From positions 992,001 to 1,056,000 of the forward strand of contig CP048717.1 of NCBI GenBank assembly GCA_022641835.1: a stretch of 64,000 nucleotides of DNA. Reading direction: 5' to 3'. Positions 10,474 to 25,627 of this stretch are shown here, piece after piece. A program made the position numbers and the translations under genes. Every line of letters begins with the position of its first letter. Positions within the stretch are counted from its first letter, which is position 1. Under the pieces are notes generated by a model. The model made no database searches, was not told where the DNA came from, and was given only the letters and a program-made list of their open reading frames with translations. This DNA is from Petasospora fabianii. Taxonomy: Eukaryota; Ascomycota; Saccharomycetes; Phaffomycetales; Wickerhamomycetaceae.

Positions 10474-12480
10474 TCAATCTTCATTATCGTTCTGTTCCAA
10501 ACTTCTGTGAAGATACGGTTTAAAGACAGTCTCGTAGTAGTATGGAATTTGCTCTTTCCCAGTCTGACTGTTTACAAAGGAGAAGTATTCCTCATAAATG
10601 CCACCCTGCTTCTTACCAATCTGTGAGGCAATGAAGAAGTCACTTAGGTTGAAAGAGTCTGTGATACCCACAATATCTGGTCTTAATTTCTCATTAATCT
10701 CATCAATCTTGAAGTTCACCTGCTGTGTGAAATCGGAGCCGGTTATCACTCCAAAGGAGTAGAGCTGACCAATGTTCTCAACGGTGATGGAAAGGGCATA
10801 TAACTGACAAAGAAGAGTCAGAACTGGCTTGATCTCGGCCTTTGCTTTCTGGACCCTCGAGTAAAAAGTCTTCAAAGTGATGAGCTTAGTGTGGATCTTG
10901 GCAATTTCAAATCTGTTGGATGAAACCTTTTCGAATGCATCTTCCTGATTCCCAGAAGCCTTGAGGAAATTCTTGTAGCTAGCAGTAGCCTTCTTAACCA
11001 GATTCTGAGAGATGAATTCCCATGCACTGATGATCTGTTCAATGTCTTCGAGCTGGGAAGTCTTCAACTCGAAAGTCGAGACGTCATTGGCCAAGTATTT
11101 GGAGTAGTCACCTAGCTTCTCTCCCTTCTCCAATGCCAAATAATTCTGAATCAAAGCACGACCACAACTCAAACTCAAGACATTGTTGTCTCCCTCCCAA
11201 GTGCACTGGACGACCCAATCATTGTAGCCTTGACCGAAACCATTGTATCCAGAGTACCCATGACCTCCACAACTTTGTCTTCCCTCATCGATGATCTTAC
11301 ATGTCTCCCAGGTACCAAAGGCCTTCATACCAGCAGATAGGGCAAACAGATCTTTCAAATTTGGTAGAGCCTTGTCCATGTCTCCGGAGAGCACAGATTC
11401 CTGAGCCTTTTTCTGGAATGCTTCAACCTCAGCACTGGAGGCATTAAGGGCAAATACCGAAGCCAGAAGTGGGAATAGTCTTCTTCTGTGATGAGTGTAG
11501 TCAATGATCTTCTTCTCCTTTCCTGTACCATCATTTCCAAACTGTCTTCTCATGGCAGCATATCTCAGGGCAATAGTAATAAATCTCTTTCCAGTAGTGT
11601 ATGAGTCGTAAACCATGGTCACTCTACCCATCACAAGAGCTGTGTATCCGAGTTGTTCGGCAAACTTTGGTTTGGAGACGTTACCTTCATCATCAACACT
11701 TGTGTACTTGCTTAGCATGTTGAATCTTGGGATTCTAACGTGAGTAAACTGGATCCAACCATTGTCTATACCATCTCTTCCCATCTTTTTACCAATGTCT
11801 CCAATAGCGATACCAGGGAGAAGCTCATGAGTGTTAACATCTCTAAGCTGAACAACAAAGTTCTTTGTACCATAGTCCTTACCCTTTACAATCAGCCTAG
11901 CATAGACAACACAATGAGTAGCAGAATGAGCAGCACCTCCAATCCACCACTTTGTAGCACCGAGATGTGGAGTATGGATCACGAAACAGCCATCATCCTC
12001 ATCATAGGTAGCAAGAGTCTGTAATCCAGCAACATTAGACCCATGAGTTAGCTCAGTCATACCAAAGCATCCAAAGAACTTGGAACATTTGAGACCACCT
12101 TTATCAACACACCAGTGTGTGAACTGTTCTGGTGTTCCTAATGCCCTCACAGTTTGTGTAAAGAGTCCGAAATGGACACCGAGTCTAGTGTAAGTGGCAC
12201 CATCAATGATGGCGAGCAGTCCCATTCTCTTGTTGAACTTCTCCTCACCGTCCAAGCTCAAGAAGGGAACCATGCGGGTGATTCTCTTAAAAGACATCTC
12301 ACGCTGCTCTTTCCAACTTAGATCATAAGTTGGAACTTTGAAGATAGGATCACGCTCAAAGGAAGTCATCATCTCCTCGAGCTCTAGTGTCTTGTCCTTT
12401 CCACCATCGAGGAAGTACGTAAGTTCACGTGTGTTGAAAGAGCACTTCTCGCGCTCTTCACGCATCTCTTGAAGCGACAT
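10474..12480 (-). CDS. POX1: Peroxisomal acyl-CoA oxidase
   Basis: A 668-residue acyl-CoA oxidase, the first and rate-limiting step of peroxisomal beta-oxidation, which oxidises acyl-CoA to trans-2-enoyl-CoA and makes H2O2. The FAD/substrate block CFGMTELTHGSNV is at 138-150. GGHGYSGYNG and TWEGDNNVLSLSCGRALIQ, holding the presumed catalytic Glu, lie near 410-440. Length fits fungal Pox proteins (about 650-750). The C-terminus QNDNED is not a PTS1 signal, as is usual for fungal acyl-CoA oxidases, which enter through a non-canonical Pex5 route. A CCTCGG lies 157 bp upstream. The gene converges with the transporter. Several budding yeasts have multiple POX paralogues, so the number is uncertain. 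Confidence 0.95.
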   Translation of the reverse strand: MSLQEMREEREKCSFNTRELTYFLDGGKDKTLELEEMMTSFERDPIFKVPTYDLSWKEQREMSFKRITRMVPFLSLDGEEKFNKRMGLLAIIDGATYTRLGVHFGLFTQTVRALGTPEQFTHWCVDKGGLKCSKFFGCFGMTELTHGSNVAGLQTLATYDEDDGCFVIHTPHLGATKWWIGGAAHSATHCVVYARLIVKGKDYGTKNFVVQLRDVNTHELLPGIAIGDIGKKMGRDGIDNGWIQFTHVRIPRFNMLSKYTSVDDEGNVSKPKFAEQLGYTALVMGRVTMVYDSYTTGKRFITIALRYAAMRRQFGNDGTGKEKKIIDYTHHRRRLFPLLASVFALNASSAEVEAFQKKAQESVLSGDMDKALPNLKDLFALSAGMKAFGTWETCKIIDEGRQSCGGHGYSGYNGFGQGYNDWVVQCTWEGDNNVLSLSCGRALIQNYLALEKGEKLGDYSKYLANDVSTFELKTSQLEDIEQIISAWEFISQNLVKKATASYKNFLKASGNQEDAFEKVSSNRFEIAKIHTKLITLKTFYSRVQKAKAEIKPVLTLLCQLYALSITVENIGQLYSFGVITGSDFTQQVNFKIDEINEKLRPDIVGITDSFNLSDFFIASQIGKKQGGIYEEYFSFVNSQTGKEQIPYYYETVFKPYLHRSLEQNDNED

Positions 12481-17060: not shown

Positions 17061-18077
17061 ATGAGATCTTCTCCGCTTCTTTATTCCCTCCATCGGATTC
17101 GAACAGTAGCAAACCCGAAAAACTATACACTTGCATCATCTCTTGTCACTACCCCATTCCAGCCCAGATCTCTTCTGCTACTCTCCACACCATCATGTAT
17201 AGAATTCGCCATCACTGAGATCCAATCACTCACATCTACCAACCCAGATTTACAGATTGTCATGGCTGGGTCACTCTCATCGTCCCATCCTAACAATATT
17301 TCGGAATTGTGGATGGATACGAGGATGGATATTAAGAAGATTACGCCTCATTCGTTTGGAGAGCCAAAGCGGAAACAGTGGCATTTCGTGAGGAGTCAAT
17401 TAAACTTAAACTGGCAAGGTGGAGTAAATACAAGTGTTGAAGTTGCCAATGGCACTCAGTTGCTAGGAGATGGTGTTCTATCGACGATGTTCATCGTTGA
17501 TGAAGAGAACGGCTCAAGTTGGGCAAACCTCAAGGAATTGGACATTGGGATTCCATTGAATATCAGAAGGACCCAACGTTTGTCTCACTTGAAGAAGCTT
17601 GGTGAATCCACTTGGTCTGTCTCCGAAACAAATGGTAATGTCTTGAAGAGCCTCGAAGGTGGAAGCGCTGCTCAAGTTTTGATGCAACTGTTGGATGAGG
17701 CAGGTATCAAAAAGACCGTTGATGTATTTGCCAAAGTTAGCACTGGTAGAGGCTCAAAGATCCATAAGGTCATTGCTGGTGGCGGTCAATGGGGTGCTGG
17801 TGCTGATATCCTTGTTCTTGAAAATATGGAGTTTTCCGCTGATGAAGACACAACTATTGAGTTCTTGGTGGTTGACATAGACACAACGCATCCATTCAAA
17901 GTTGAAGGACTCAGTTTTGAGAATGTTCCATTGGATAGTCAGGAATTGGCATCTGATATTGCAGAGGATACCATCTTTGAGGATCGTCTCTGTTTCGGTT
18001 CTGCCGGTCCTTTCGATGTCAACGGCTTGACGCATTCGTCTCCCTTTGAGGCTCTATCATTTGAAGTTGAAGATTGA
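17061..18077 (+). CDS. Unrecognised protein with mitochondrial-type N-terminus (possibly FIST-like)
   Basis: A 338-residue protein from an ATG at 17061. I do not recognise it with confidence. The first about 35 residues are basic and lack acidic residues, like a mitochondrial presequence (MRSSPLLYSLHRIRTVANPK). Then come SLLLLSTPSCIEF, a WMDTRMDI segment, a long polar middle, and a C-terminal block with GGGQWGAGADILVLEN. The order weakly recalls fungal FIST-domain proteins, but this is memory-based. There are no membrane helices and no obvious catalytic motif. The gene is downstream of DUG1 on the same strand, with 227 bp between them. Confidence 0.6.
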   Translation: MRSSPLLYSLHRIRTVANPKNYTLASSLVTTPFQPRSLLLLSTPSCIEFAITEIQSLTSTNPDLQIVMAGSLSSSHPNNISELWMDTRMDIKKITPHSFGEPKRKQWHFVRSQLNLNWQGGVNTSVEVANGTQLLGDGVLSTMFIVDEENGSSWANLKELDIGIPLNIRRTQRLSHLKKLGESTWSVSETNGNVLKSLEGGSAAQVLMQLLDEAGIKKTVDVFAKVSTGRGSKIHKVIAGGGQWGAGADILVLENMEFSADEDTTIEFLVVDIDTTHPFKVEGLSFENVPLDSQELASDIAEDTIFEDRLCFGSAGPFDVNGLTHSSPFEALSFEVED

Positions 18078-18904: not shown

Positions 18905-20137
18905 ATGTCTTTGCGTGAAGACGTTATTGGGAAGGCTGTTGAGTTCCTGCGGGATCCACAGACGGCATCTGCTCCGCTTGAGAAGAAGGTTGAGTTCTTG
19001 GAAAGCAAGTCTCTCACCAAGGCGGAAATTGAAGAGGCCATTAAGAGATCTCAGGATTCGTCATACACTTCGTCTAAGTCGTCCTCGTTTCCAGAATCAT
19101 CATCTGTGTCGACAAACGATGGACAGCAGCAGCAACAGCAGCAACAGCAGCCATACCATCAGCAGTATTATGCCCCTGCGCCACCACCGGTTCCTGAACG
19201 TGATTGGAAGGATTACTTCATCATGGCTACCGCCACTGTTGGTGTTGGTTATGCTCTATACGAGATCACTAAGAGATATGTTTTGCCAAATATTATTCCA
19301 CAGAGTAAGTCACAACTCGAGGCTGATAAGGAGTCAATTGATGAAGAATTTGTTCGCATTGAGGCCGTTTTGAAAGAGATGGGCGAAGTGCAGAAGGAAT
19401 TAAAAGAGAATGAGCTTCAAAAAGCTGAAGAGATTTCCAAGACCATCACATCTGTTGAGGAGATGGTCAATGCGACGAAGGAGAAGAACACTAAGGTTGA
19501 AGATGATCTTAAAGTGTTGAAGCTCGAAATTGACAACTTGAAGGGAAGCTTTGAGAGAGCGATTGAGAAACAACAGGCATCTATTGCTGGTGAAGTTGTT
19601 AGTATTCAACATGAGCTACAGTCTTTGCAGGCATTGATTAAGAGTAAGAACTCTCTTACAACAGAGATCAATGGCAATGGTACAAAGAAGTCACCAGTGC
19701 CAGCTGTGTCTTCCATTCCATCTGCATCTGAGATCTTGAAGAAGAACAATTTCCAAAAGGGTCCAGCCACTGCTCCAGCCACTGCTCCATCTGAGTCCAC
19801 CCTTAAGTCTAATCCAGGATCACCAAACTCCACACAGTCTGGCATCGCTTCTTCAAGCATCCCATCTTGGCAAAGAGAGTTATCGAGTGCTGGCTCATCA
19901 TCCAACTCTATCCCAACTTGGCAACAGAACATGGCTTCCTCGTCTCAATCTATCCCATCGTGGCAACAAGCTGGTCAGTTGAGTGCTAACAACACCAGTG
20001 CAGAGGAGACAAACAGTGTCAGTAAGCAGGAAGTGTGGCCTGAGCAGGAAGTAACTGACAATGACTTGATTGATAATGAGACCAGTGAGGAGATCAAAGA
20101 GGATGAGAGCGATAAAGCGGGTCCTGTTGATCAGTGA
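18905..20137 (+). CDS. PEX14: Peroxin-14, docking factor of the peroxisomal importer
   Basis: A 410-residue Pex14. Residues 4-50 match the conserved N-terminal domain that binds Pex5 and Pex19 (REDVIGKAVEFL, SAPLEKKVEFLESK, LTKAEIEEAI). A polyglutamine run at about 74-82 is followed by a proline-rich PPPVPERDW (93-101) suited to the Pex13 SH3 domain, a hydrophobic segment at 103-122, and a coiled coil at about 137-240. The C-terminal tail carries three SIP[S/T]WQ repeats with tryptophans at 322, 339 and 353. S. cerevisiae Pex14 has 341 residues, so this one is longer, mainly in the tail. It acts with Pex13 and Pex17 at the peroxisomal membrane, importing matrix enzymes such as the acyl-CoA oxidase also present here. 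Confidence 0.95.
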   Translation: MSLREDVIGKAVEFLRDPQTASAPLEKKVEFLESKSLTKAEIEEAIKRSQDSSYTSSKSSSFPESSSVSTNDGQQQQQQQQQPYHQQYYAPAPPPVPERDWKDYFIMATATVGVGYALYEITKRYVLPNIIPQSKSQLEADKESIDEEFVRIEAVLKEMGEVQKELKENELQKAEEISKTITSVEEMVNATKEKNTKVEDDLKVLKLEIDNLKGSFERAIEKQQASIAGEVVSIQHELQSLQALIKSKNSLTTEINGNGTKKSPVPAVSSIPSASEILKKNNFQKGPATAPATAPSESTLKSNPGSPNSTQSGIASSSIPSWQRELSSAGSSSNSIPTWQQNMASSSQSIPSWQQAGQLSANNTSAEETNSVSKQEVWPEQEVTDNDLIDNETSEEIKEDESDKAGPVDQ

Positions 20138-20507: not shown

Positions 20508-21064
20508 ATGTCTGAAGAAAAGAAGAGCTTTATCGTACGTGTCTTGTGTTGATCTGGTTCGGGGGGTTGCTTTCTTCCCCCCGTCTCAACTTGTTAAACT
20601 TCCCCACGTTAACGCCACCCGTCTTGGCTCCCCGAAGAGGCAGGGACCCAGATGGTGTTTGATATAATCACGGAAGATTCAATTGTAAGAAATCTCAAGA
20701 TCCAATGCTAACAGACAACACCACAGGTCACCCTCAAGGAGTCAGCAGATCCAGCAAAGTATGTTCCCGATCATATATGACCGACCCCTTTTCAGATCAT
20801 TGACTAACTAACACAATAAACAGGTTCAAAGATTCCCTCAGCAAGGTTGGAGGTGAAATCACGCACGAGTACAACCTTATCAAGGGCTTCGCGTACGTAT
20901 CATTGTTATCTTAACGCACTAGTTGATGTGGGGTCCTTATCAGTTGAGATACTAACAAAAAGCGTGACAGTGTCAAGCTCCCAGGTTTGCACGCTGAGAC
21001 TTTGCAAAAGCAAGACGATGTTGCTACAGTCGAGGAGGATAAGGAGGTTCACATCCAGAAGTGA
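20508..21064 (+). CDS. PBI2: Proteinase B inhibitor (I9 family), four exons
   Basis: A 73-residue protein assembled from exons 20508-20534, 20727-20758, 20824-20892 and 20971-21064. Introns begin GTACGT, GTATGT and GTACGT, have branch points TGCTAAC (20706-20712), CTAAC (about 20808-20812) and TACTAAC (20950-20956), and end in CAG. The product begins MSEEKKSFIVTLKESAD, has GGEITHEYNLIKGFAVKLPG and ends VEEDKEVHIQK. This follows S. cerevisiae Pbi2 (75 residues; NFIVTLKK, GGSIVHEFDIIKG, VEEDKEVHTN). Pbi2 is a cytosolic tight inhibitor of vacuolar protease B and a vacuole-fusion cofactor. Splice sites were placed by reading frame and homology. The upstream AG at 20961-20962 would break the frame. 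Confidence 0.93.
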
Positions 21065-21403
21065 AGAGTCTGTCTTATCTGTCTCGTTCCCCTTCCTTTT
21101 CCCCCCGCACCGGTTGCGTGGACGTCTGGTGAGATCTTAGATCAAGCTAATATTGATTGTTTATTATTATTGTTTTTTTCATTCTCTTTCTGATCCTGAC
21201 GTGGATTGTATCAACATTACACATATTTTTATACTAAATCTTTGTTTAGTATGCGTCAATGGCTTGTAGTTCTTGTAGTACATATCAATCATCTACCTTC
21301 GAAGGTGTCAAACGAGACGCTTATCTCCAGTGTGCCCCTACCACCTGTCTTTGTATTGAGAACTTATAACTTCTAATTAATGGTAATGCTACTTAAAGTG
21401 AGT
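21065..21403. other. Convergent 3' spacer after PBI2
   Basis: A 339-bp AT-rich spacer between two converging genes. The 10-mer GCCCCTACCA lies at 21334-21343. Nothing else was recognised. Confidence 0.4.
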
Positions 21404-23401
21404 CTATAAAAGACTCCCCATACTAGAGCGATGGTGCCACTTTGCGTTCTGATCAGGGTAAGGTGTACTCTTAGCCCATAGGTTTTTCCTGATAGTGTCA
21501 AGGTCTTGTTGAGTCAACCGTAGTTTCTCCTTACAATACTGTTCAATACCACCAAACTTTAGGTTGAACATCTGAATGGTACTAATCATAGTCTCATATT
21601 TCGAGCTGATCATATTTTCAAACATCTGATCAGGTGATAACTCCCACATGGCATGCTTTAGATTATCATCATCGTGGCCCTCAGTCTCAAGATCTTTCTT
21701 CAATTTGGCAATCATAGTCATAAATCCCTTCTTAAGACCCGGATGGTCCGGTAGGAGACCCACAGTGGTCAACTCATACTCCTTAGCAATAGTATGATCA
21801 TCAACACCAAGAAGTAACAAGATTAACATCGTCATGAGTCCCGTACGATCTTTACCGGCAGTACAGTTATAAGCGATTGCATCACCTGGATGATCTCTAA
21901 GATACATTAGCACAGCCCTGAAAGCATCACCACCTTGCTTCAACATCTCCTCATAGACATATTTGAAAGTGTACCATGACCCCAATAGGTGCTTGTAACG
22001 ACGAGCAATCCCCTGTGGTGACATGTCCGTGTTCTTGTACACCGGTGTATTGAACACCTCGATACCATCAACATGTAGTGAACCGGCATTCTCAAGTTCC
22101 TCATTAGATCTGAGATCAAAGAAGGCCCTAATTCCCAGAGTCTTAAGCTGCCTGATGCCCCGTGGAGTCACATTGGATGGATTAGCGCAACGGAATATCA
22201 CAGCAGCCTTGACATAATGCTTATTGTCCGCTGTTCTCCAACCTCCAATGTCTCTAAAATTGGATATCCCTTCAATATCTCTCCATCTTGGATAGTAATA
22301 CACCTCGTGAGTAGCACTTTTGTATCTTTGAACATCGCTTCTGGTGTGAAGCCAGTCGGTGATGAGGTCTTTGACTTGATAGTTGAAGTTTACCTTACGT
22401 CTTTTTGTGAGTGGGAGATGATCAGGATTGAGTTCTGAAGAGTTTTCTTCATCAATCGTTTCTGTGCCGTAGAAGTTATGGTCAGCAGTATGGATGAACA
22501 CAAGTTCATGTCTTCCTCCCAGTGCATTAGCATAGAAGGACGAATCATCAACGGGGACTATGGTATCATGGAGACCATAGATACTAAAAACTTGAATCTC
22601 AGGGTCTAATCCCTTGACACCACTGAAGTCCTGCTTTGCAAGATCAAGAAGCTCATTCTTCACGAGGGGAACTTCAGTAAACTTACCGAATCTGTACTGT
22701 GACATGGAGAAACTTGTATCATCTTCATCCTCATCATCATCTGATTGGCCACCACCATCTTCCAAGTGGTATTCATCAATGACCAGTTTCGATCTGTATC
22801 TCCCCGAGCAATTAACTAAGCTGGGGACAAACTGGAACGGTTCACCACTCTCACACTTCACTTGTTGTCTAATAGCCCATTGGAACATCACAGTAGATCC
22901 CCTCGAGTGTCCCACAATGACATTTGGGATCAGATTGATCCCAATCTCAGTAAAGTGACCGCCATTTTTGAACACGTCGTAGATCCACTCGACATCATCA
23001 ACCTCTGACTTGACACTCCGACCTTGAGTTACATCGGGTACCTCTTGTGAATCGCCGTTACCCCTAAAATCGAAACGGAAGACGTGATAACCGAGCTTGG
23101 AAGCGAGCTCAGTGGCCAGGAGGGTATGATAGCAGTAGTTCTTATGGCCGCCTGTGCCGTGGAGGATAATGGCGAGCCGGTGTGTCGGAGGGTAGTGCCT
23201 ATTATACGATGTGGGCGTGGTAATGATCTCACGTTCAGAGAGCAAAGATGTCGGAGGCACGGTGAAGATGCCCACTATTCCCTCCTTGTTGTGGGTGGTT
23301 GAGTTTGGGCGACGCAATGAGAGAAGACGTTCGTTTGATGGGAGTTGATACCCTGGAACGAGATCGTCTCGTAGACGAGTAACGATGGTGTCTTTGGTCA
23401 T
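21404..23401 (-). CDS. Alpha/beta-hydrolase fused to a tyrosine-phosphatase domain (copy A)
   Basis: A 665-residue two-domain protein starting at ATG 23401; the frame upstream is open but lacks an ATG. The N-terminal half is a serine hydrolase: LHGTGGHKNY oxyanion block, GHSRGS nucleophile elbow (S166), acid GLHDTIVP and His in ADHNFYG. From about residue 365 a PF13350-type phosphatase follows: RDIEGISNFRDIGGWRT, IFRCANPSN and the CX5R loop NCTAGKDRTG (C513, R519), then MLILLLLGV. All catalytic residues of both domains look intact. It has no signal peptide or membrane helix, so it is probably soluble. It lies in tandem with a close paralogue and ends with the same SMGSLL tail. Substrate is unknown; lipid or ester hydrolysis plus phosphate removal is possible. 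Confidence 0.85.
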   Translation of the reverse strand: MTKDTIVTRLRDDLVPGYQLPSNERLLSLRRPNSTTHNKEGIVGIFTVPPTSLLSEREIITTPTSYNRHYPPTHRLAIILHGTGGHKNYCYHTLLATELASKLGYHVFRFDFRGNGDSQEVPDVTQGRSVKSEVDDVEWIYDVFKNGGHFTEIGINLIPNVIVGHSRGSTVMFQWAIRQQVKCESGEPFQFVPSLVNCSGRYRSKLVIDEYHLEDGGGQSDDDEDEDDTSFSMSQYRFGKFTEVPLVKNELLDLAKQDFSGVKGLDPEIQVFSIYGLHDTIVPVDDSSFYANALGGRHELVFIHTADHNFYGTETIDEENSSELNPDHLPLTKRRKVNFNYQVKDLITDWLHTRSDVQRYKSATHEVYYYPRWRDIEGISNFRDIGGWRTADNKHYVKAAVIFRCANPSNVTPRGIRQLKTLGIRAFFDLRSNEELENAGSLHVDGIEVFNTPVYKNTDMSPQGIARRYKHLLGSWYTFKYVYEEMLKQGGDAFRAVLMYLRDHPGDAIAYNCTAGKDRTGLMTMLILLLLGVDDHTIAKEYELTTVGLLPDHPGLKKGFMTMIAKLKKDLETEGHDDDNLKHAMWELSPDQMFENMISSKYETMISTIQMFNLKFGGIEQYCKEKLRLTQQDLDTIRKNLWAKSTPYPDQNAKWHHRSSMGSLL

Positions 23402-23668
23402 TTTGATGACCTCTAAATGGTGTCTTGTGGAGGACAAACTTCCTAAAGAGGCCCTGAGCTGTGCTGTTTATACCTGAACAATTTAAAGCTCTAGGAAGTC
23501 TACCCCGGTCTTTTGCGCCTCGGCAATTCCAACATGCATTATGTGTGGGGAAAGTCACCCACCTCCCAACGAGCGGGATTTGCCGAGCGAGATACAAGTA
23601 ATAACCCATAATGCACTATTGTTGGGTATAAATTTGCGGTAAATTACTCTATTCATTTACTAGATACT

Positions 23669-25627
23669 CTAAAGAAGGCTACCCATCGATTGACGGTGTT
23701 TCCATGTCGAATTTTGGTCCGGGTACGGACTCGATTTTGTTAGCAAATTGCGTCTGATGGTGTCTATATCCTCCTGTGTAAGCCCAAGTTTCGACTTGCA
23801 ATACTGTTCAATACCACCAAATTTATGGTTGAATAGCTCAATTGTGCTAATCATACTCTCGTATCTCGAGCTGATCAAGTTTTCAAACATTTCCTCCATA
23901 GAAGCATTGGCATTGAGCTGCTTATGTGCTGCAGCGACATCTGGATCATACTCCAGCCTCTTTTGCAACTTTGTCATTTGGATATAAAAGTCCTCCTTGA
24001 TCCTAGCATGGTCAGGAACGAGCCCAATAGTGGTAAGTTCATATTCCTTGGCAATTGTGTGGTGATCAACACCCAGCAATAGGAGGATTAGCATCGTCAT
24101 GACACCGGTTCTGTCCTTACCAGCAGTGCAGTTGTATACGACACCAGTGGATGGGTTGTCCCTAACGAACAGAAGAACACTTTTGTACGCATTGACACCG
24201 TGGTTCAACATGTCCTCGTAGACGTACTTGTAGGTGTACCACGATGCCAGTAGATTCTTGTAACGTTGCGCAATGGCTTGAGGCGACACATCGACATCAC
24301 TGAACACGGGCACGTTATTCACATCGATACCGGTGATAGACAGGCCACCGGCCTTGGTGAACTCAGGAAGAGATCTAAAGTCAAAGAACTGTGTCACGCC
24401 AAGGGTCTTGAGCTGGGTCTTTCCGAACTCGGTAACGTTTGAAGGGTTGGCGCATCTGAATATAATGCCCGCCTTGACATAATGTTTGTTGTCCTCTGTT
24501 CTCCAGCCACCAATGTCTCTGAAGTTGGAGATACCTTCAATGTCCCTCCATCTCGGATAATAGTACACTTCCTGCGTGGCACGCTTGTACCTCTGCACAT
24601 CGTTGGATGTGTGGAGCCAATCGACAATGGTCTCGGTCACCTTGTAGTTCCAATTAACCTTCCTCTTCTTGTTCAAGGGATAGCCTTGTGGGTTAAACTC
24701 GTCTGCATTATCATCGTCAATTGTTTGGATACCATAAAAGTTGTGATCTGCGTGTGGGATGAAAGTGAGTTGGTGTCTTGAGCCGAGCAGGTTGGCAAAG
24801 TATGTCGAATCAGAGAGCGGGACTATATGGTCGTCCATGCCGTAAATGCTTAACACTTGGATCTCATCGTCGAGAAGCTTCACTTTGCTGAGGTCCTGGC
24901 TTGCGAGATCAATAACTTCTTCAGCAGGGATCTTGATGTCCCGGTATTCACCCAGTCTGTACTGGTTGAGCACACTTGCAAAGGCACCTTTGCCCTCAAG
25001 GTCCCTCAGTAGTCGCTTGGCCATGTATCTAGCAGAGCAGTTGATAAGATTTGGCACGAATTGGAAACTCTGTCCCATCTCGAGTCTCGTTTGCTGCTTC
25101 AGGGCCCACTGGAACATCGAGACGGAGCCTCTAGAGTGACCAATGATGCTGTTTGGCACTAGATTTGTTCCGATCTCGGCATAGTCTCCTCCTCGCTTGA
25201 ACACGTCGTACACGAGCTCAATGTCCTCGATATCCTCTAGCACTTTACGGCCCTTCTCGGGTTGCTCATTCTCCTGAGAGTCACCACATCCACGGAAATC
25301 GAACCGGAAGGAGTACATTCCCAACTTGGTGGCGAGGGCTTCCGCCACGAGCGCTTGATAACAGTAGTTCTTATGTCCCCCTTTACCGTGGAGCACAATG
25401 GCGAGTCGGTGGGTCGGTGGATGTGGATGATCAGCAGAAGCTGTAGCGGAGAGCATCGTCGTCTCGTCTAGCAGGGCAGCTGGTGGCACTGTGAGGATGC
25501 CCACGAGACCTCTTCCTTGTGGGTTTGCCGAGGTTGGGATGGAAACGCTTAGGAGCTTCTCGTTGGGTAGAAGGGCATAGTTCGTGCAAGTCTCCGGTGG
25601 TAGTAACGTGACAGTCGGCGTCGCCAT
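23669..25627 (-). CDS. Alpha/beta-hydrolase fused to a tyrosine-phosphatase domain (copy B)
   Basis: A 652-residue paralogue of the neighbouring fusion gene, start at ATG 25627 (MATPTVTLLP), which aligns with the start of copy A. The open frame continues upstream to about 25819 without an ATG. Motifs: LHGKGGHKNY, FDFRGCGDS, GHSRGS (S165), GMDDHIVPL, ADHNFYG, then RDIEGISNFRDIGGWRT, NCTAGKDRTG (C500, R506) and the C-terminal SMGSLL. The two copies are closest in the phosphatase half, including long identical stretches. They lie head-to-tail on the minus strand, 267 bp apart, consistent with tandem duplication. Copy A has an extra acidic insertion (SDDDEDEDD) in the hydrolase domain that B lacks. 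Confidence 0.85.
   Translation of the reverse strand: MATPTVTLLPPETCTNYALLPNEKLLSVSIPTSANPQGRGLVGILTVPPAALLDETTMLSATASADHPHPPTHRLAIVLHGKGGHKNYCYQALVAEALATKLGMYSFRFDFRGCGDSQENEQPEKGRKVLEDIEDIELVYDVFKRGGDYAEIGTNLVPNSIIGHSRGSVSMFQWALKQQTRLEMGQSFQFVPNLINCSARYMAKRLLRDLEGKGAFASVLNQYRLGEYRDIKIPAEEVIDLASQDLSKVKLLDDEIQVLSIYGMDDHIVPLSDSTYFANLLGSRHQLTFIPHADHNFYGIQTIDDDNADEFNPQGYPLNKKRKVNWNYKVTETIVDWLHTSNDVQRYKRATQEVYYYPRWRDIEGISNFRDIGGWRTEDNKHYVKAGIIFRCANPSNVTEFGKTQLKTLGVTQFFDFRSLPEFTKAGGLSITGIDVNNVPVFSDVDVSPQAIAQRYKNLLASWYTYKYVYEDMLNHGVNAYKSVLLFVRDNPSTGVVYNCTAGKDRTGVMTMLILLLLGVDHHTIAKEYELTTIGLVPDHARIKEDFYIQMTKLQKRLEYDPDVAAAHKQLNANASMEEMFENLISSRYESMISTIELFNHKFGGIEQYCKSKLGLTQEDIDTIRRNLLTKSSPYPDQNSTWKHRQSMGSLL

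Follow-up and report, generated by a model that had tools for sequence, protein, structure and literature searches.

Soluble epoxide hydrolase (EPHX2) is composed of a half with the alpha/beta-hydrolase fold and a phosphatase of the HAD type. In a review on this enzyme, the hydrolase is described as sharing one chain with a phosphatase acting on lipid phosphates, both halves as derived from dehalogenase superfamilies, the two activities as having independent and opposite roles, and the architecture as related to stability and to the existence of two different substrates (PMC7000630). Here, we describe a tandem pair of genes from the yeast Petasospora fabianii, copies A and B, each of which fuses an alpha/beta-hydrolase to a phosphatase of Pfam family PF13350 (Y_phosphatase3). 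The pair lies in a window of 64,000 nucleotides (the whole stretch of DNA analyzed), which belongs to contig C3 of a genome that totals 12.3 Mb over 16 contigs. On the basis of sequence and structural models, each gene probably encodes a bifunctional enzyme, an esterase joined to an atypical-lipid-phosphatase-type enzyme on a plan resembling that of soluble epoxide hydrolase. Both domains are of known kinds, and any novelty would lie in their combination. No description of this fusion was found among the titles and abstract openings listed from the literature searched, which omits most subscription journals, and the fusion may well already be annotated in other yeast genomes.

Family PF13350 comprises what we take to be the IphP/LipA/PtpB type of phosphatase. 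Atypical lipid phosphatases, according to Beresford et al. (2010; PMC3091653), consist of the phosphatase domain alone and bear the signature HCXXGKDR; relatives are active on phosphoinositides and also on phosphorylated peptides, and the Lys and Asp of the P-loop matter for binding and catalysis in the lipid-active ones. A and B carry this Lys and Asp and contain no WPD string anywhere in their sequences. In contrast to the described enzymes, they read NCTAGKDR at the signature and possess an N-terminal hydrolase half. The phosphatase would thus work like an atypical lipid phosphatase, without being classed as a strict member. The hydrolase half resembles feruloyl/cinnamoyl esterases and monoglyceride lipases in triad and fold, and differs from them in its own N-terminal extension and the C-terminal fusion. 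Soluble epoxide hydrolase has the reverse domain order, and the A/B phosphatase is predicted to be Cys-dependent, belonging to PF13350 and matching no HAD family up to E 1; EPHX2 is an analogy of plan and not a relative. The features of the pair are as follows:

21404..23401, minus strand: copy A, hydrolase-phosphatase fusion of 665 amino acids (uninterrupted frame and Pfam)
22337..23401, minus strand: copy A hydrolase half, residues 1-355, triad S166/D279/H308 (Pfam, alignment, motif positions)
22280..22336, minus strand: copy A domain joint, residues 356-374 (17/19 identical to copy B)
21473..22279, minus strand: copy A PF13350 phosphatase half, residues ~375-643, P-loop C513-R519 (Pfam, motif positions)
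23402..23668, no strand: intergenic spacer between A and B, 267 bases (coordinates)
23669..25627, minus strand: copy B, hydrolase-phosphatase fusion of 652 amino acids (uninterrupted frame and Pfam)
24602..25627, minus strand: copy B hydrolase half, residues 1-342, triad S165/D266/H295 (Pfam, alignment, AlphaFold2 model)
24545..24601, minus strand: copy B domain joint, residues 343-361 (17/19 identical to copy A)
23738..24544, minus strand: copy B PF13350 phosphatase half, residues 362-630 (Pfam, alignment, AlphaFold2 model)
24107..24133, minus strand: copy B P-loop, N499-C500-T-A-G-K-D-R506-T507 (alignment, motif positions)

The two genes are arranged head-to-tail on the minus strand, with the ATG of copy A at 23401 and its stop at 21404, and the ATG of copy B at 25627 and its stop at 23669. 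These starts and stops agree with the span 21404..25627 given for the pair by the initial annotation, which had been made from the sequence alone. Each frame crosses from the alpha/beta-hydrolase half into the PF13350 half without a stop, and each half exceeds its Pfam cut-offs, which bears out the proposed fusion in both genes. The initial annotation had allowed for an unseen stop or intron between the halves; this was looked for in both frames, and separate genes are ruled out by the open frames and the lack of S. cerevisiae-type intron signals, neither GTATGT nor TACTAAC occurring on the sense strand of A or B. Read as Leu, CTG codons number 15 (5 in A and 10 in B). An alternative code in which CUG specifies Ser is unlikely, given that several CTG codons sit at expected hydrophobic positions, one example being the LLLLG stretch that follows the P-loop in copy B (no formal test).

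The N-terminal half matches Abhydrolase_1 (40.0 bits in A, 37.9 bits in B; cut-off 25.8) and Hydrolase_4 (35.9 and 31.6 bits; cut-off 27), with both matches confined in copy B to the first ~190 residues. Membership of the alpha/beta-hydrolases is further indicated by the nucleophile elbow, acid, His and canonical fold. The motifs HG.GGHKNYCY, FRFDFRG and GHSRGS are preserved in both copies together with the triad, and none of the Ser, Asp and His positions varies when A and B are aligned with 14 bacterial proteins from the hydrolase profile search. A confident AlphaFold2 model of this half from copy B (predicted local distance difference test score, pLDDT, 84.9) is feruloyl-esterase/monoglyceride-lipase-like, and identity to the 50 solved structures listed is 13-25%.

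The C-terminal half matches Y_phosphatase3 far above the cut-off of 22.2 (201.1 bits in A and 203.6 bits in B, at residues ~362-630 of the latter). At these 201-204 bits, the likeness to the family extends to a C-x5-R loop with G-K-D-R-T-G and to a fold like those of PtpB and the Clostridioides difficile protein tyrosine phosphatase, the difference being the Asn that stands for His before the Cys and the attached hydrolase. Catalytic loop and fold both place the two copies with the PtpB type: the C-T-A-G-K-D-R loop is kept, with C513, K517, D518 and R519 in A and C500, K504, D505 and R506 in B. Alignment with 30 bacterial phosphatases revealed invariant residues beyond the loop (N368, R370, G373, R391, D416, R418 and E422, in B numbering) as well as within and beside it (C500, G503, D505, R506, T507 and G508, with K504 nearly so), though the phosphatases were drawn from P-loop-motif loci and the invariance of the loop is hence partly built in. 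The AlphaFold2 model of this half is confident and PtpB-like, with the C. difficile enzyme (8dhi/8dhj) and M. tuberculosis PtpB (1ywf/2oz5) as the closest relatives of known structure. The domain, labeled a tyrosine phosphatase in the initial annotation, is accordingly better described as PtpB/atypical-lipid-phosphatase-like than as one of the classical type. Active-site residues of both halves (GHSRGS, acid, His, C513/R519 in A and C500/R506 in B) were found where they had been placed, and motif positions and conserved alignment columns agree that both sets are intact in both copies. Each polypeptide thus holds two complete, conserved catalytic sets.

A and B are related by duplication, as had been proposed: their local alignment scores 2059, far above the 70 reached by the best of 200 shuffled comparisons, and 387/652 aligned residues are identical (59%). 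Conservation is higher in the C half (203/307, 66%) than in the N half (184/345, 53%). The proportion of synonymous differences (pS) is 0.83 and that of nonsynonymous differences (pN) 0.28 overall, with pN 0.32 and pS 0.84 in the N half, and pN 0.22 and pS 0.81 in the C half. The pS of 0.83 and a longest identical DNA run of only 23 bases indicate that the duplication is ancient, synonymous sites having approached or reached saturation; the long identical stretches reported earlier exist in the protein and not in the DNA. Recent duplication or gene conversion is likewise unsupported, since in addition to the short run, 7 of 11 blocks of ~60 residues yield no finite synonymous divergence (dS), the other four giving 1.8 to 3.35. 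With pN well under pS in each half, purifying selection appears to act on both, which argues that both are in use. The least conserved 60-residue block (A 182-253, 37%) lies in the hydrolase half, close to the position of the modeled cap hairpin, and blocks at 42% identity occur in both halves (A 1-61 and A 554-613).

The domain joint (B 343-361) falls outside both Pfam matches and is 17/19 identical between the copies, equal to the P-loop region. Conservation at the level of the phosphatase loop suggests that this segment may be a structural contact holding the domains in a fixed arrangement, rather than a loose spacer.

Taken together, each gene product would be a soluble, probably cytosolic, bifunctional enzyme. 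Its N half, which carries the full Ser-Asp-His triad and is predicted to belong to the feruloyl-esterase/monoglyceride-lipase-like branch of serine hydrolases, would by family cleave a carboxylic ester, and its C half, a Cys-dependent PtpB-type phosphatase with the Lys and Asp of atypical lipid phosphatases, a phosphate monoester (sequence and models for both). Likely substrates are small amphipathic molecules, for example lysophospholipid- or phosphoinositide-like, rather than phosphotyrosine proteins. The conserved joint may keep both domains in set orientation, and old tandem duplication would have left two copies, both retained under selection. As the hydrolase half is the more divergent one, the specificity of the hydrolase may have come to differ between them. 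More speculatively, both cuts could fall on one substrate class, for example in the turnover of an acylated phosphate compound, in line with the two-step reaction on an ester-linked phosphate compound that the initial annotation had suggested. This idea carries only moderate weight, because the precedent of soluble epoxide hydrolase indicates that fusion need not mean one substrate. In its fullest form, in which rigidly joined sites strip acyl and phosphate from one lipid or inositol class, the second copy serves another acyl group and the plan is convergent with that of soluble epoxide hydrolase, the proposal is tentative and rather doubtful.

Several points weigh against a bifunctional esterase and lipid-type phosphatase. 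Identity of at most 25% to the 50 solved structures listed leaves the bond cut by the hydrolase unfixed, and the bacterial sequences in both alignments were picked by the profiles or motifs of these same domains, so that the invariance is partly built in. The domain arrangement cannot be read from the full-length AlphaFold2 model, whose N half is poor (most of residues 45-303 under pLDDT 50). Asn, not His, precedes the catalytic Cys in A and B; among 85 phosphatase open reading frames (ORFs) from the best 80 of 574 confirmed bacterial loci plus two viral loci, 79 carry His at this position and 6 carry Asn, the search pattern having permitted only these two. Operon pairing of the two families is also rare in bacteria, with 2/66 close same-strand neighbors of the phosphatase matching Abhydrolase_1. 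If one substrate serves both activities, A and B would be compact yeast enzymes removing acyl and phosphate groups, and they would provide a second joining of an alpha/beta-hydrolase to a lipid-type phosphatase, beside soluble epoxide hydrolase, and a testable function for a fungal branch of PtpB-like phosphatases, whose biological role is left open by Beresford et al. (PMC3091653).

Among alternatives, the one that survives best is that each chain carries two independent enzymes with unrelated substrates, joined for co-expression or stability only. The independent and opposite roles, stability and two substrates ascribed to soluble epoxide hydrolase in the review (PMC7000630) are in line with such an arrangement, as is the unequal identity of the halves (53% vs 66%), yet a joint as conserved as the P-loop region would be needless for loose tethering, and we regard independence as unlikely. 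Less probable by far is that the phosphatase, whether for phosphoinositides or phosphoproteins, is the working enzyme and the hydrolase half mainly a binding or regulatory module: the C half is indeed the more conserved (203/307 vs 184/345) and the 37% block lies within the hydrolase half, yet blocks at 42% occur in both halves, and the triad and three hydrolase motifs have been kept in A and B while synonymous change reached or nearly reached saturation. It is very improbable that each gene encodes a protein tyrosine phosphatase acting in signaling, to which a hydrolase is attached, since neither copy has a WPD string and the Cys loop holds the Lys and Asp important in lipid-active relatives. 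The tyrosine phosphatase label is nevertheless borne by the Pfam family and by the closest structures solved, and such enzymes also act on phosphorylated peptides (PMC3091653), so that a protein substrate is conceivable.

Within their own genome, A and B are the only strong matches, whether the query is the full protein or just its hydrolase half; further weak matches number one for the whole protein (E 0.035) and two for the hydrolase half (E ~0.012). Other alpha/beta-hydrolases exist there, none close to A and B, Hydrolase_4 matching 18 times with the two copies included, and PF13350 yields two short, weak matches elsewhere. For the phosphatase half, no recent transfer is visible, because identity to bacterial PF13350 phosphatases is low (23-28% in the alignment and 24-33% over best segments). 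The hydrolase half matched 0/10 prokaryote genomes at E<=1e-4. In the phylum to which a Caulobacter belongs it matched 12/398 genomes (E 1.3e-4 to 0.0099); its 0/398 at E<=1e-6 in the Paenibacillus phylum says little, the search having no positive control. With the whole fusion as query, matches came from 34/395 genomes of the phylum that includes a Mucilaginibacter, no match spanning both domains; three weak matches there (E 0.003 to 0.004) fall on the last part of the hydrolase half and on the joint, and one of the loci (L139) weakly fits the hydrolase profile. No whole-protein relatives were detected in the viral contigs or genome contigs searched. Plasmid records matched the whole protein in 152 cases, no single place covering 80% of the query; all 30 listed rows fall in the phosphatase half, and no plasmid record was matched by the hydrolase half on its own.

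No fusion of this kind occurs among the 85 phosphatase ORFs, the five longest having been scanned with Pfam and the others judged by their length: the 5/85 that exceed 400 amino acids contain a hydrolase domain in 0/5, and the remaining 80, at 389 amino acids or fewer, are presumably too short to hold both domains. Fusions of PF13350 with other domains do occur in bacteria, as in a 791-residue frame of a deltaproteobacterial metagenome-assembled genome (L039:739-3114), where the partner is FMN_dh (FMN-dependent dehydrogenase), and in a 655-residue frame (L132:1321-3288) with an autotransporter beta-domain. Close neighbors were defined as lying on the same strand, within 200 bases and encoding 110 amino acids or more; 67 were found and 66 scanned, the one left out (L063) being itself a phosphatase ORF. 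Lipase_GDSL_2 matched 2/66, and since the 25 commonest of 87 neighbor families were listed, further hydrolase families may be missed. One of the two Abhydrolase_1 cases is a Hydrolase_4 gene directly after the PF13350 phosphatase in Levilactobacillus (L041:5971-7815). An Apilactobacillus plasmid (L012:2989-4730) has phosphatase then Hydrolase_4 gene in the same order, unfused; its hydrolase is no close relative of the yeast one (BLASTP E 0.28). These neighborhoods show no sign of general coupling of the families (with no control rate for random genes), and the rarity of pairing in bacteria does not argue against coupling within the yeast fusion.

Both proteins end in SMGSLL (21407-21424 in A; 23672-23689 in B), as had been noted. 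The final SLL is similar to a weak peroxisomal targeting signal of type 1, and is listed as a predicted signal in plant kinases in one report (PMC8886021); evidence for peroxisomal targeting by such a tail in yeast was not found in the literature looked at. A Pex14-type gene (18905-20137, plus strand), which faces the 3' end of copy A, and an acyl-CoA-oxidase-type gene (10474-12480) lie nearby. Copy B starts 234 bases past the end of a same-strand gene matching the alpha-mannosidase Ams1. Between copy A and the Pex14-type gene, short reading pieces separated by GT...AG-like stretches (~20508-21100, plus strand), beginning MSEEKKSFI and later reading FKDSLSKVGGEITHEYNLIKGFA, suggest a small gene interrupted by several introns, presumably resembling the proteinase B inhibitor Pbi2. 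A plus-strand frame of 338 amino acids at 17061-18077 is without a Pfam match at E 1e-10. The surroundings of A and B fit an ordinary yeast chromosome.

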